From Coriobacteriia bacterium (GTDB lineage Bacteria; Actinomycetota; Coriobacteriia; WRKU01; WQUG01): a stretch of DNA of 49,267 nucleotides. The translations under genes and the position numbers were made by a program. Location of the stretch: the NCBI GenBank assembly GCA_009784345.1, contig WRBW01000005.1, positions 1 through 49,267 on the forward strand, written 5' to 3'. The notes under the pieces were generated by a model, which made no database searches, was not told the origin of the DNA, and was given only the letters and a program-made list of their open reading frames with translations. Numbering within the stretch: position 1 is the stretch's first letter; each line of letters opens with the position of its first letter. Below are positions 8,909-15,455 of the stretch, one piece after another.

Positions 8909-10456
8909 TCAATCACCATTAAGGTCGATGTCTGAAGCCAGATATTTTCCGCTCAACCAAAAAGCTGGCTTTGGAAGCCACCGCCCATCTGGAAGAACGG
9001 ACCCGAATCTCTTGCCGCGGACAGTATCTTCAAAGCCATCGACTTCTACATATCTATATTTTGCCCTATTTCTGACAAAGACAAATTTGAAATCTCTTGC
9101 TTTTGGAAGATTATGCTCTACTTTAACGCCGTTTTTCTGCATCTTCAAATTGGTCTCGACACCATCATTTATCACACGTCTTGTTGCTGCCCATAGCTTT
9201 TTTCCCTCGCGCTCGACTATTTCAGCCGGCGGCTTCCAAAAGATTACCTCTCTTAACACTCTATCTACCTCAAGTCCGTTTTTGTCAGGCTCATCTTTTT
9301 GAAAAATAACCAACATTAACCTTAGGCTATTTAGATATTCGCGAAGTTCAGAAGCCTCCCAAGATTCTTCAGCTACCAAATCCATGAACTCAAATGTCAA
9401 AAGTGGCAAATCTTCCGCAAGCCTTCCGTCATGCTCAAGACAGATTGTTCTCGATGATGCACCCTGCTTTTTAAGTTCCTCTGCCTCATTCTGGTCAACC
9501 CCAAGTATGAGGTTGGTGATGCTTCTCCAGTGACTCTTGTTCCGAGTATGCTTAATTCCAAAATATAGGCAAATATCTCTGTCCGTCATCCCAATAAAGG
9601 GCACAAACAAATCGCGAATACTATTATCGAGGCCGTTATCACGCAAAATGCTAATATCACTTACAATTGGCTTATACTCAATGTCGTCTAAGTGACTCTT
9701 GAGTACTGCCTTCATATAGCTACTCTTAAAAGCAAAAGCTCTGCTTCTCGCCTTCTTCTTGCCGTCTAATGAAGGATAGTATTGAAGCTTCCAACTCTTC
9801 TCCAATGTACTACCTTTTGTACAAGCCCCTAAGTAGAGTGTATCGCCCTCTCTCAACATGTGAGCTAGACCATTTCTTACCATTGTCGAAATGTCTTCAT
9901 AGTCTTGGCGAATTATTTCTAGGTCTTTCTCAGTAGGCGTGTGTATCCACACGTTTCGTATACCCTGCTTCAACCGATTATCCCTCAGCTCATCCTCGTG
10001 CTCATAGAATACAAGAAGGATTTTTTCCATCTTCTTCCACAAGGAAGAGTCTTCTAGAGTTCTAGCAATAGGCTCTCTATACGAAATCATGCAAATGACT
10101 ACTCGCTCTTTGGCGGATGGCTTCCCACTCTTCAACATTTTATACGGGGTTGATTTAAGCTCGACTCCCGCTGCTGGAAAATCAGGTTCAGTCTCGGAAT
10201 TCCTATAGTAGCCAAAAAACCTCTCCTCAATTAATTGTCCTAAATTCCCCTTTCCTTTCCCCTGCCCAAAATATCTATCTTCTTCAAAAAAGTTCTTAGG
10301 TTTTTCTGTATCAGTCGGAAAGCGATTTAGTGAAAGTATGTCATTGAAAGTAAGTCCTTCAAGGAGCTTACCTACTGATTCGATGCTTTGAGGACATGAC
10401 TCATCCATGGATTCAAGTGCATCAAGAATTCTCTTTCTCTCAGCAGCTTGAAGCAT
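8909..10456 (-). CDS. Sau3AI-type (MutH-like) type II restriction endonuclease
   Basis: GKGNLGQLIEERFFGYYRNSETEPDFPAAGVELKSTPY (E...D...ExK catalytic pattern of MutH/Sau3AI); adjacent to a C5-cytosine methyltransferase. Confidence 0.85.
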   Translation of the reverse strand: MLQAAERKRILDALESMDESCPQSIESVGKLLEGLTFNDILSLNRFPTDTEKPKNFFEEDRYFGQGKGKGNLGQLIEERFFGYYRNSETEPDFPAAGVELKSTPYKMLKSGKPSAKERVVICMISYREPIARTLEDSSLWKKMEKILLVFYEHEDELRDNRLKQGIRNVWIHTPTEKDLEIIRQDYEDISTMVRNGLAHMLREGDTLYLGACTKGSTLEKSWKLQYYPSLDGKKKARSRAFAFKSSYMKAVLKSHLDDIEYKPIVSDISILRDNGLDNSIRDLFVPFIGMTDRDICLYFGIKHTRNKSHWRSITNLILGVDQNEAEELKKQGASSRTICLEHDGRLAEDLPLLTFEFMDLVAEESWEASELREYLNSLRLMLVIFQKDEPDKNGLEVDRVLREVIFWKPPAEIVEREGKKLWAATRRVINDGVETNLKMQKNGVKVEHNLPKARDFKFVFVRNRAKYRYVEVDGFEDTVRGKRFGSVLPDGRWLPKPAFWLSGKYLASDIDLNGD

Positions 10457-10459
10457 ATT

Positions 10460-11788
10460 CTATTCGACCGCCTGATGTCGTCTGGCAATCTCTTTTCCAA
10501 TTTGGCGAACGATGCCTACAACCAGTGCGTTCCCAATGCAGAATGCGCGCTGCGCATCTGTCATGCCTGTGCCAGTCCACCCTTTGGGAAATCCACTCAA
10601 TACATCAAGTTCGTCAGGTACTAGACGACGAAATTTTCCTGATTCGGTAACTACAGCGTGTTTTGCTCTAGATGCAGACCCCCCCCCCTCAGATGTGAGG
10701 ATAGTACGTGCAGGCCTGTTGAGTGGATCAGGGAAAACCATACTTCCCTCTGCGTAAATGTATTCGTGCCCCGTAGTCTTATTCATGCGGGGTATCTTTT
10801 TACCACCCTTGTGATATTTCCACTTTTCGATGGCATCTTCTGAAAGGTAAAACTCTTCTGGAACTTCATCTTCACAGACAAGAGCGCTTTCCAGGGTATG
10901 ACTCTTCCCAGAATACTTTGCTTGAACTCTCGCCGTAACGATGTGGCAGTGTTGCATTACGCCGGCATTAAGAAAGGGTGATGTACTTTTGCCATGTCCA
11001 AAGCTAGTGCTCACCTCATAAGGATCATTAGGGATTTCGAATTCACTGTAGCATAGGTTTTCTGAGGTGATGGGCAGAGCTTTTGCCTCGACACCATCAG
11101 CAGATAGCCTCTTTTCTAAATCCCATTTCTCGTCTGTCAGCTCTGCATAGATAAACACGCGGCGCCGGCGCTGAGGGTAACCATAGTCAGCAGCATTGAC
11201 GTCGCGCCACTCTACGGAATATCCCAGGTTCGCTAGACAGCTGAGCATGATAGCAAAGTCTCTTCCGCGCTGATCTTTAGGGGACTTGAGCATTCTGTCG
11301 ACGTTTTCCAGAAGTAAGTACTTGGGTCGCTTGTCGCCATATAGCGACAGCATACGATAGATTTCCCACCACAGTACACCCTTTTTGCCACGCAGACCTT
11401 TAGCCTGTGGCAAGGGTCGCGCCACGGAGTAATCTTGACAAGGAAACCCACCCACCAACATCTCGCACTCGGGAAGCTGCCTGACACCAGCTTCAACCTC
11501 ATCGAGGACAACCGCCAAATCTTCATTAATCATGTTTTCAGCAGGAATTTTCTTAGCGAAACGCTCTTGATAGCACTCGAAAGCATATTGCTTCTTTGGT
11601 GAGCCAGGAGGCTCCCATTGGTTCGCCCAGACGACTTTGAAGCCGTTATTCTTCCACTTGGCTCCCCGAAAGTTCACACCCTCGAGCCCAACATGAAAGC
11701 CTCCCACGCCAGCAAAAAGCTCCACAACCCGAATGGGTTGCACTAGATTTTTAACAGTATTTGCTGGTTTTTTGATCGCCATAACCAA
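10460..11788 (-). CDS. DNA (cytosine-5)-methyltransferase
   Basis: VVELFAGVGGFHVGLE, GGFPCQDYSVA, YLLLENVDR, YGYPQRRRRVF, ILTSEGGGSASR motifs. Confidence 0.95.
   Translation of the reverse strand: MVMAIKKPANTVKNLVQPIRVVELFAGVGGFHVGLEGVNFRGAKWKNNGFKVVWANQWEPPGSPKKQYAFECYQERFAKKIPAENMINEDLAVVLDEVEAGVRQLPECEMLVGGFPCQDYSVARPLPQAKGLRGKKGVLWWEIYRMLSLYGDKRPKYLLLENVDRMLKSPKDQRGRDFAIMLSCLANLGYSVEWRDVNAADYGYPQRRRRVFIYAELTDEKWDLEKRLSADGVEAKALPITSENLCYSEFEIPNDPYEVSTSFGHGKSTSPFLNAGVMQHCHIVTARVQAKYSGKSHTLESALVCEDEVPEEFYLSEDAIEKWKYHKGGKKIPRMNKTTGHEYIYAEGSMVFPDPLNRPARTILTSEGGGSASRAKHAVVTESGKFRRLVPDELDVLSGFPKGWTGTGMTDAQRAFCIGNALVVGIVRQIGKEIARRHQAVE
10679..10688 (-). repeat. homopolymer C10 (G10 on the coding strand) within the methyltransferase CDS
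   Basis: gcagaCCCCCCCCCCtcagatg; encodes E-G-G-G-S. Confidence 0.9.
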
Positions 11789-11881: not shown

Positions 11882-13723
11882 TTATGAATACATATTGTTC
11901 AGCAATGAGTTTATCAAGGAGCTGCCTCTCGAAGAAATGAGTCTGATTGCTGGTGCTGGATTAACCAGCGCCGACTCAAGACCACTCTTTGCTTCTTCCA
12001 GCTCATCCTTGGTGGGGTATAACGCTCTTTCAAGATATGTTTGGCAGTATGACTGACCCTCTTTCTCATACTCATATAGCGTCTTTAGACCCTTGCCGCG
12101 ATTGGAGGGCAAGTCTAAGAACATTATATTTCCAATGGCTCCACCTGGGATTTTATACCTTTTGTAGAATTGGTCGAGAAAGCCTCTTCTGGTAAGAATA
12201 TGTTCATATTCATATCTTTGTTCGTTGAGAGTACATGCATAATAGGATGTGAAAACAGCCACTATTAGTTTTTGCACCTTTCCGATGTTGATTGAGGGTC
12301 TCTCAACTTCATCACTGTGCCACTCAATCAGTGCATTCTCCAACCTTTGCCTGTCTAATGACCTTAGGTATCTATTCTCTCCACCATCAACGTATATTTG
12401 TGCAATCTTTGAATCCCCTGTGCCGGACCAATACCCTGTTACGGCATCAAATAGCAGGTAGAATATGAAATTTCTGCGAGCCTTATCATAATTCACCATA
12501 TAATGAGATGTCGGCTCGAGCACTTGCACATCTGAAAGATTTCTGTACTTTATGGTCCAAAGGGATGCGAACATAGAAATGACCTGAAAGTCAGAGATAG
12601 CCGATGACTCATAGGCATCATTTACACCAGGCTTCCGAAGCTTCTGCTTGAGGGTATCGTTGATATCTTTATAAATATTTAGCACCTCATTCGTAAGCCT
12701 TTCAACAAATTGCTCATCCTTCAATAAGTCAGCTTTATTCACCAATTCATGAAGCTTTCGATTGTCTACTTTTAGCGCGATTGCAGCACTTGTGAAGCCG
12801 ACTACATTTTTTAACTCTCCGGTCTCGCTGCTTTTCCCGAAAAACAGCGCTGGGTTCTTTGATACTATAAGCGACCCTAGCGCTCCACAGAATTCTGAAA
12901 GATTGATCTCTCTATCTTCTTGCATCTGAAGTGGATCGTAATCGACAATTTCCAGCTCGCGATCGGAAATTAAAGAATCGTAACGATGTATCACATTATC
13001 AAGGAGCTCTTGGCTTGCTGGCCCCTCACTTAGCTTTACAGTGTATCCATACCACTGTGCCGCAAAAACCTGATACTTAGTCAGCTTTTTTCCACCACGG
13101 TTTAGGTTTGAAAAGACCTCAGCAAGCTGCGTCTCATCTCCCAAAAACTCAATGTAAGGTATGTCCACATTATCAATGTTCAAATATGACTTTACGTCAG
13201 AAATTAGCTCACCCTGGAGTCTGGTCAGCTCATCACCCTTCGCTGCAGTCACCATATTCGAAAATTCACTATTTATCTGATCCCTAAGATAGAATGTATC
13301 AGAATCATCAAGCGAAATTACAACCTCTCTAAGTACTGCTGATATCTTTGCCTCATACTCGCTCATTGTTGCCTGAGGAATTTTCTCCCGCTCATCAAAC
13401 AGTATACTGAGTACCTTTTGTAGAAATTCACCCTTAATCGGATAATACAACGACGGATTTGACTCAAAGTCCATCATCGTCGAATACCTCTGCAGTCCAT
13501 CAATCAATGTGAACCTGTCGGAATTATCGTTTTCGTCAGCACCATATTTGTACAATAAGATTGAGCCGAATGGAAAGCCATTGTGAAGCGTCTCGATAAA
13601 CTCTCTCTTTTCATTCTTGCTCCATACAAGTCTTCGCTGGTATTTTGGAAGCTTAATTTTGCCCCTCAGCATGCTTAAACTCATTTTGTCTGCACGATAT
13701 AAAGCATGGCGATCGTTAGTCAT
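11882..13723 (-). CDS. DUF262 (GmrSD-like) domain protein with HNH/DUF1524-like C-terminus
   Basis: KIKLPKYQRRLVWSKNEKREFIETLHNGFPFGSILLYK, LIDGLQRYSTM; C-terminal YEHILTRR...GNIMFLDLPSNRGKG. Confidence 0.85.
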   Translation of the reverse strand: MTNDRHALYRADKMSLSMLRGKIKLPKYQRRLVWSKNEKREFIETLHNGFPFGSILLYKYGADENDNSDRFTLIDGLQRYSTMMDFESNPSLYYPIKGEFLQKVLSILFDEREKIPQATMSEYEAKISAVLREVVISLDDSDTFYLRDQINSEFSNMVTAAKGDELTRLQGELISDVKSYLNIDNVDIPYIEFLGDETQLAEVFSNLNRGGKKLTKYQVFAAQWYGYTVKLSEGPASQELLDNVIHRYDSLISDRELEIVDYDPLQMQEDREINLSEFCGALGSLIVSKNPALFFGKSSETGELKNVVGFTSAAIALKVDNRKLHELVNKADLLKDEQFVERLTNEVLNIYKDINDTLKQKLRKPGVNDAYESSAISDFQVISMFASLWTIKYRNLSDVQVLEPTSHYMVNYDKARRNFIFYLLFDAVTGYWSGTGDSKIAQIYVDGGENRYLRSLDRQRLENALIEWHSDEVERPSINIGKVQKLIVAVFTSYYACTLNEQRYEYEHILTRRGFLDQFYKRYKIPGGAIGNIMFLDLPSNRGKGLKTLYEYEKEGQSYCQTYLERALYPTKDELEEAKSGLESALVNPAPAIRLISSRGSSLINSLLNNMYS

Positions 13724-13899
13724 ATTGCACTCCCAAGAATCTGGATGAACACTTATCCTATTAGATCATGACGTTTGCGACGGATCAAGATCTGCGAAAA
13801 AAATGCATGAGACATAAATGCTCGCTTCCGCCACCAATGCCACCTGTGCTGAAGTGAGATTGCCGAGTTCGAGCGTGATTTTTTTGAGCGATCATAAAA

Positions 13900-14131
13900 G
13901 AAGGTCAAGGGCGAGATTCCGCGTCGGGGTGCAGCGAGTGTGGTCATGATATTGACAGACGCTGACGCGAGGCACTTCGGTGACGATTAGATTGACTGCG
14001 TCATCACTGCGCTCCGTTCGCCAGGGCATGCGCAAGCGATGCCCGCTCACTATGCTTGCGTTGCGGGTTAAGCCCGCAATGACGGGAATGGATGTCGCGC
14101 TGGTGGGTGGGTGGTGTGGGCGTGCTCCCCC
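13900..14131. repeat. mosaic extragenic repeat block ending in the 15-bp motif variant
   Basis: About 190 bp (13944-14131) nearly identical to 16720-16909; hairpin TTGCGGG-TTAAG-CCCGCAA; ends TGGGCGTGCTCCCCC. Confidence 0.8.
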
Positions 14132-14133
14132 AA

Positions 14134-14982
14134 TTAAGCTTTATTTGTTAATGCCAGTTGAGATGAGAGAGCGTGTATACTTGCCAGCTTTTCGTAACTT
14201 ACAAATTCGACTCTCTGGCGAATGTCGTCGAAGATAGTTCGATTGATGACATCGTGGAATTTGCTTTCTCGATACTCATCGGCAACAATCTGAAACGATG
14301 CGTTGAAGTCCTGTAGCTCATAGAATTTTGTCAGCGAATTGAGTATATCGGTCGAGTGCTCGATTTCGATAAAGGCGCTGGGCATACGCCTTTCGTTAAA
14401 CCAGACAACGTCAACTGTTTTCGCATATCTGAGCAGCTCTGGGTAGGCGAAGGGCTCGATGTCATTTAGTGAGCTTACGCTAGAGAGCGGCTTTCCCACG
14501 AAAAGCCGGTTCTTGTCCTGGTTCGGCACGTAGGTTGACTGGTCTTTGTAGTTCCCGACCTCGACCGCCAGACCCTGATAGTAGGAGTGTGAAAAGTCTT
14601 CTTTTTGCGCGTCTGCAACGGTGGCGATGTTGAGCTTGCTGAGGACCTCTGGTTTTTGTTCTTCGAGGGCCCAGAGCCCTGGCTTTATCTTGAAGAACGC
14701 AGGATTGTCTTGAACGATTCTTCTGACTGAGGCCTCGGGTGTTTTTGACTTCCAGCGCGAGTAGTCCATCGCTGCATTGAGTTGCCCGAAGGTGGCAAAG
14801 CCGCCGAGCTCCTTCATTTTTGCTATGACCTGTTGTGCCTGCGTCACTGTGACATCACCTCGCTGGTTGCCGCTATTCGTATGTGGCAAGTTTACCCTAT
14901 GACGAGCGCATGGTGGCTGGGCTAGAGGAGCAGGCGGTAGGGTCATTGAGTCGATATTTGTTTTGCTTAGAGTTCGTGCCAT
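14134..14982 (-). CDS. wHTH (HARE-HTH-like) protein with nuclease-like C-terminal domain
   Basis: QQVIAKMKELGGFATFGQLNAAMDYSRWKSKTPEASVRRIVQDNPAFFKIKPGLWAL wHTH; VVWFNERRMPSAFIEIEHSTDILNSLTKFYELQDF. Start uncertain. Confidence 0.6.
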   Translation of the reverse strand: MARTLSKTNIDSMTLPPAPLAQPPCARHRVNLPHTNSGNQRGDVTVTQAQQVIAKMKELGGFATFGQLNAAMDYSRWKSKTPEASVRRIVQDNPAFFKIKPGLWALEEQKPEVLSKLNIATVADAQKEDFSHSYYQGLAVEVGNYKDQSTYVPNQDKNRLFVGKPLSSVSSLNDIEPFAYPELLRYAKTVDVVWFNERRMPSAFIEIEHSTDILNSLTKFYELQDFNASFQIVADEYRESKFHDVINRTIFDDIRQRVEFVSYEKLASIHALSSQLALTNKA

Positions 14983-15161
14983 TCGAGTTCGTTGTTGTTG
15001 GCGACCGCCATTTGGGATGATGTGATGTTGCCGGGTTCGAGGACGAATTCGCAGTCGCGGTATTTCTGGCGGGCGATGTCGAGTGCTTCTTCGGGTGATT
15101 GTGCAATGACGGTAAATGCTTCTGAGATGGTTTCTTCGATTATGATTTCGTATTCTTTCAT
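14967..15161 (-). CDS. DpnD/PcfM-like small protein
   Basis: MKEYEIIIEETISEAFTVIAQSPEEALDIARQKYRDCEFVLEPGNITSS pattern of the DpnD-PcfM family. Confidence 0.65.
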   Translation of the reverse strand: MKEYEIIIEETISEAFTVIAQSPEEALDIARQKYRDCEFVLEPGNITSSQMAVANNNELEWHEL

Positions 15162-15189
15162 GGGGGTTGCTCCAATCAATTTTTGATCG

Positions 15190-15455
15190 ATCGTATCAGA
15201 ATGGCGCGTAAGGTCAAGGGCGAGGTTGCGGGCGAGCGGGGGCGCTCGCCCCTACAGATGGGCGTACGCGGCAAGGGTTTTCGGGTGCTGTGCGCCCGTT
15301 TCTGGTCCTGTGGCGTGAGCCACAGGTGCATGGGGTTAAGGGCGAGGTCAAGGTCAAGGGCGAGATGCTGCGTCGGAGTGCGGTATGACAAGGCACGGGC
15401 CGCAATGACGTGACTACAACCGGCGGGTTGCTGGATTGGACGTGCTCCCCCGCTT
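15190..15455. repeat. mosaic extragenic repeat block with GNRA hairpin
   Basis: CCTGTGGC-GTGA-GCCACAGG at 15307-15326; GGGCGAGC...GCTCGCCC hairpin; ends TGGACGTGCTCCCCC (15437-15451). Confidence 0.8.

Follow-up and report, generated by a model that had tools for sequence, protein, structure and literature searches.

The question raised by this locus was whether a run of ten guanines in a cytosine methyltransferase gene could switch a restriction-modification (R-M) system on and off, and how a cell would tolerate such a switch next to an intact nuclease gene. The run lies in the window (the whole stretch of DNA analyzed, 49,267 nucleotides, contig C5), which belongs to a Coriobacteriia MAG of 1.48 Mb with a completeness of 85%. 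The C5 cytosine DNA methyltransferase gene (M; 10460..11788, minus strand) was identified by the Pfam DNA_methylase profile (PF00145, 181 bits) and TIGR00675 (192 bits); the motifs GGFPCQDYS and ENVDR were found in its product, and the solved fold nearest to its model is M.HhaI. Its open reading frame encodes 442 amino acids from a TTG codon, the likelier start being an ATG two codons in, at position 11782. The neighboring gene on the same strand (R; 8909..10456) encodes a Sau3AI-family (MutH-like) restriction endonuclease, as indicated by NF040973 (403 bits, cut-off 300) and by structure 4pxg (E 3.6e-43). The two open reading frames are separate, with 3 nt between the M stop codon (TAG) and the ATG of R, and a possible ribosome site of R's own, AGGCGG, is located 12–17 nt before this ATG. 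The locus thus comprises a Sau3AI-family nuclease and an adjacent C5 methyltransferase with conserved motifs, as in a Sau3AI-type Type II R-M system (nuclease structure 4pxg), with GATC as a candidate recognition sequence.

The run occupies positions 10679..10688. The plus strand around it reads GCAGA CCCCCCCCCC TCAGATGTGAGG, and the minus, coding strand reads ATC CTC ACA TCT GAG GGG GGG GGG TCT GCA TCT AGA (I-L-T-S-E-G-G-G-S-A-S-R), the third base of GAG being counted within the run of ten. It encodes E-G-G-G within ILTSEGGGSASR in frame with M, and the 442-aa reading frame is intact at this length; position, coding-strand reading, and frame all agreed with the earlier description. A change of run length by one or two bases would leave 372–379 residues and remove the last 64–70, since translation would end at a stop codon at 10668..10670 (one base more or two fewer) or at 10651..10653 (one base fewer or two more), both on the minus strand. 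This bears out the prediction that a one-base slip truncates M after its catalytic motifs. The part that would be lost aligns with residues 250–318 of M.HhaI, which holds the C5 methyltransferase motifs IX and X. In an AF2 model of M (pLDDT 83), the tract falls in an irregular stretch (residues 361–377) that precedes the last strands and helices, and methylation should be lost from a slipped M. The run therefore has the form of a contingency locus, i.e., an in-frame homopolymer in which a change of one unit truncates the product.

How unusual such a run is was assessed from composition. It is the only run of ten G or C in the 49-kb window, for which dinucleotide-preserving shuffles gave a mean expectation of 0.03, with 2 of 100 shuffles containing one, and the genome holds a single copy of its 15-mer. 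Judged only by composition, such a run is unusual, yet possible. It might be a neutral accident of codon usage in a constitutive Sau3AI-like R-M system, to which the tract-bearing relatives described below would be unrelated. The genome does contain nine G runs of at least 9 bases in 1.48 Mb, several of them intergenic, and three consecutive GGG codons have a probability of about 0.003, given that GGG makes up 13.9% of the glycine codons in 29 window genes; moreover, the M gene of the window falls outside the clade of these relatives in a quick tree. Against this, the run sits at exactly the codon that bears the tract in that clade, with the same SEGGGSASR surroundings, and a tract is absent from 95 other homologs; the genome also has only two coding runs of at least 10 G, M's G10 and a G14 on contig C80, both in R-M methyltransferases. 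We consider a neutral accident improbable. What goes beyond chance is where the run lies and the fact that relatives conserve it as a tract.

Homologs of M are present throughout the class, and the DNA at the site was compared in 111 distinct ones. In 95 of them, the run is 6 bases or shorter and consists of mixed GGN codons, usually within ILTGEGG. A run of at least 7 was found in the remaining 16, namely in the window (10), in G059 (8), and in 14 members of a single clade of family f7 (SH-aLRT 99), in which R and M are fused and all 14 genes carry G7–G13 at the same codon. Frame deviations in this clade amount to −2 (two genes), −1 (six), 0 (four), and +1 (two), so that four genes are ON and ten are OFF; the tract is thus conserved but variable in length between these species, with both states represented. 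Phase variation, as the first-pass annotation had proposed, is well supported by a tract of G7–G13 at one site throughout this clade, in ON and OFF lengths. Replacement by mixed GGN codons in close relatives, named there as a sign against switching, is true of the 95 and false of the tract clade. The alternative raised in the same place, a rare error, is disfavored.

In families f4 and f6, the tract pattern was found in none of 280 genomes, and the M gene is absent from both sequenced congeners. Since the window gene lies outside the strongly supported fused clade (with an end branch of 0.87 in the quick tree), inference from the relatives is indirect; a single clade uniting it with the fused genes is compatible with the data (AU p 0.51). 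The quick tree had suggested that the tract arose separately at least twice, but the AU test retained the single clade. Viral contigs scanned with the window's M gave no match, a scan of them for the tract pattern gave two matches, neither with a methyltransferase hit, and where viral contigs encode relatives of the fused M, these have no tract; plasmid and phage matches were below 50% identity.

Whether the tract is maintained as such could be judged from the fused genes, among which synonymous sites are near saturation (pS ~0.7). Both tract codons are GGG in all 14 genes, although GGG accounts for 17.5% of their glycine codons, and among 43 other invariant glycine columns of the same genes none has one codon in at least 13 of 14, the maximum for GGG being 6. 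Such uniformity despite saturated synonymous sites, and with no equivalent in the control columns, argues that the tract itself is maintained. The OFF alleles are undecayed in these relatives: the frame downstream of the tract is intact in ten of ten, and the median dN/dS beyond the tract is 0.10 in OFF alleles, as compared with 0.11 in their upstream part and 0.08 in ON alleles, which indicates purifying selection past the tract. The closest comparison is that of G142 (G10, ON) with G144 (G9, OFF), which are 95.9% identical over 2682 nt; after the tract, they encode the same residues, though 7.5% of 201 nucleotides differ. As judged from these alignments, the OFF alleles are recent, or reversible, or sequence errors.

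The last of these options, taken to its full extent, would mean that all OFF alleles of the relatives are homopolymer sequencing or assembly errors in intact genes with a non-switching tract. Sequencing is known to be prone to single-base errors in runs of G9–G10, a deficit of one base accounts for six of the ten OFF calls, and an intact, selected downstream frame is equally expected from errors, so some of these calls could indeed be assembly errors. Errors would leave unexplained, however, the GGG codons in all 14 diverged genes and the runs of up to 13, and deviations of −2 and +1 were also seen; furthermore, two OFF genomes are near-finished (G137 in 1 contig, G080 in 3 contigs). Other coding G runs in the relatives were too scarce and heterogeneous to gauge the rate of assembly error. 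This explanation is in our judgment very unlikely, and sequence errors alone cannot account for the conserved tract.

The arrangement of the two genes bears on how a switch could be tolerated. In classical Type II pairs, safe switching is not expected, since an intact R becomes toxic once M is lost. The worry about toxicity voiced in the first-pass annotation was legitimate; yet all ten OFF alleles keep the nuclease frame. In all 14 family f7 relatives, a single open reading frame of ~860–950 codons encodes both proteins, with R first (the frame of L126 spans both), i.e., they have the single-chain (Type IIC/IIG-like) form that is absent from the window. These natural fusions (L124:4998-7709 and 13 homologs, L125–L137) have the Sau3AI-family nuclease at the N terminus and the C5 methyltransferase at the C terminus. 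Since the D-x(n)-E-L-K motif is also kept in ten of ten OFF fusions, either R is silenced otherwise, through instability or inactivity of the chain, or OFF cells have some other protection. As 10 of 14 clade genomes are OFF in their assemblies and yet have the nuclease frame intact, the expectation that Type II switching is unsafe becomes directly testable.

One further explanation of these alleles is that the tract is a frameshifting signal, at which the ribosome or RNA polymerase slips, so that full-length M is still made in part at OFF lengths, the proportion of the products being set by the length of the tract. This would account both for the survival of OFF alleles with intact R and for selection on both parts of the gene, but the shift needed varies from allele to allele (none, one in either direction, or two), unlike at dedicated sites, and no shift at all is needed by the allele of the window or by those of four relatives. 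We regard it as very unlikely.

Runs of at least 7 G go together with a linkage of R to M through which a frameshift in M can reach R as well: they occur in the 14 fusions and in the window, where M and R are 3 nt apart. In no other Coriobacteriia locus sampled does R directly follow M. Where R is separate and lies upstream or on the opposite strand, as in some 70 loci, the only tract is that of G059 (G8, R upstream), an exception to this pattern; in two loci of other phyla (L038 and L039), R follows M and the tract is absent. A precedent is Cj0031 of Campylobacter jejuni, a phase-variable Type IIG R-M enzyme with a polyG9 tract, for which joint loss of restriction and modification was proposed as a route round toxicity (PMC4889913). 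By analogy with it, we hypothesize that R-M linkage may make switching survivable, the independent events being few.

The G10 run is thus probably, in our estimate, a simple-sequence, slipped-strand contingency locus that switches a Type II R-M system. Replication slippage would alter the run length, and we infer both that this is frequent and reversible in the window's organism and that switching occurs there. In one length class, here 10, M would be whole and the system ON; at other lengths, the last 64–70 residues with motifs IX and X would be cut and methylation abolished (OFF). The OFF state would presumably also shut off the nuclease. In the window, this could be brought about by translational coupling, as R starts 3 nt past the M stop and ribosomes in the OFF frame would leave ~200 nt earlier, although the possible own ribosome site of R means that coupling may be incomplete; in the fused relatives, attachment to a broken M domain might leave R inactive or unstable. 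The outcome would be a mixture of restricting and methylating cells with non-restricting ones, in which protection from phages is balanced against DNA uptake or self-damage; methylation might also regulate genes. If so, methylation and phage resistance would be within-population mixtures, which is relevant to methylome studies and transformation. A wider proposal, against which we lean slightly on balance, is that there may be a class of Sau3AI-like Type II R-M systems with safe phase variation, in which linkage (by fusion or by M-R coupling) lets a single G slip silence restriction and modification together, the nuclease being dependent on an intact C terminus of M, even though Sau3AI acts autonomously. 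If this dependence were biochemical, the fused enzyme would work like a Type IIG enzyme built from Type IIP parts.

Most documented cases of R-M genes that vary in phase through poly-G come from host-adapted Campylobacter, Helicobacter, Neisseria, and mycoplasmas. We found no report of it in Coriobacteriia or in Sau3AI-type pairs in open-access papers, nor any description there of a poly-G switch for Sau3AI R-M. What appears to be new is the Sau3AI-type pair and the Coriobacteriia host, the mechanism as such being already known from other R-M genes. Like Cj0031, the present locus has poly-G of the same length class in R-M coding sequence, where slippage splits the gene into two frames; unlike that single-chain Type IIG enzyme, it pairs a C5 methyltransferase with a Sau3AI-type nuclease, as two proteins in the window and as one chain beginning with R in the relatives. 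A CpG (C5) methyltransferase of Mycoplasma agalactiae likewise has a truncating, length-variable poly(G) of 6–11, with most strains OFF (PMC9465063). Its tract is described as lying just upstream of the active domain, whereas here it is near the C terminus, past the catalytic motifs, in an M gene that is coupled or fused to a nuclease. RM.Eco29kI, an engineered Type IIC fusion, combines R and M in one polypeptide with both activities kept (PMC3039593); it is artificial and has no tract, in contrast to the natural Coriobacteriia fusions with a tract in M.

Several additional observations were made. The G14 run on contig C80 of the same genome (L184:302-315) splits an MmeI-like single-chain R-M gene (domains MmeI_Mtase, MmeI_TRD, and MmeI_C) into two frames just past DPACGSGNF, which makes this gene a candidate second phase-variable R-M system of the genome, OFF as assembled; the position of this tract is not conserved in the MmeI-like genes of relatives. 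Another genome of the same genus (G002) has an in-frame G12 (L158:1501-1512) in an MmeI-like methyltransferase domain, at a position different from that of the G14, and poly-G in R-M genes thus recurs within this genus. Among family f7 genomes, G10 runs were also seen in other open genes, encoding a bacterial sugar transferase (PF02397; L148:651-1754, G046) and a DUF6273 protein (L140:1372-2475, G106), both possible further contingency loci. Upstream of M in the window lies a GmrSD_N/DUF262 gene (11882..13723, minus strand), which probably belongs to one defence island with R and M; a DUF262-like open reading frame was also seen by eye just downstream of the fused gene at L004. The segment 8909–14982 (R, M, the DUF262 gene, and the next open reading frame) has a G+C of 0.42–0.49, as compared with 0.50–0.58 in most other window genes, which suggests that the defence island was acquired. 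Finally, degenerate direct repeats (AAGGTCAAGGGCGAG...) at 13894–15381 occur in 3–4 copies and flank the open reading frame at 14134–14982 on both sides.
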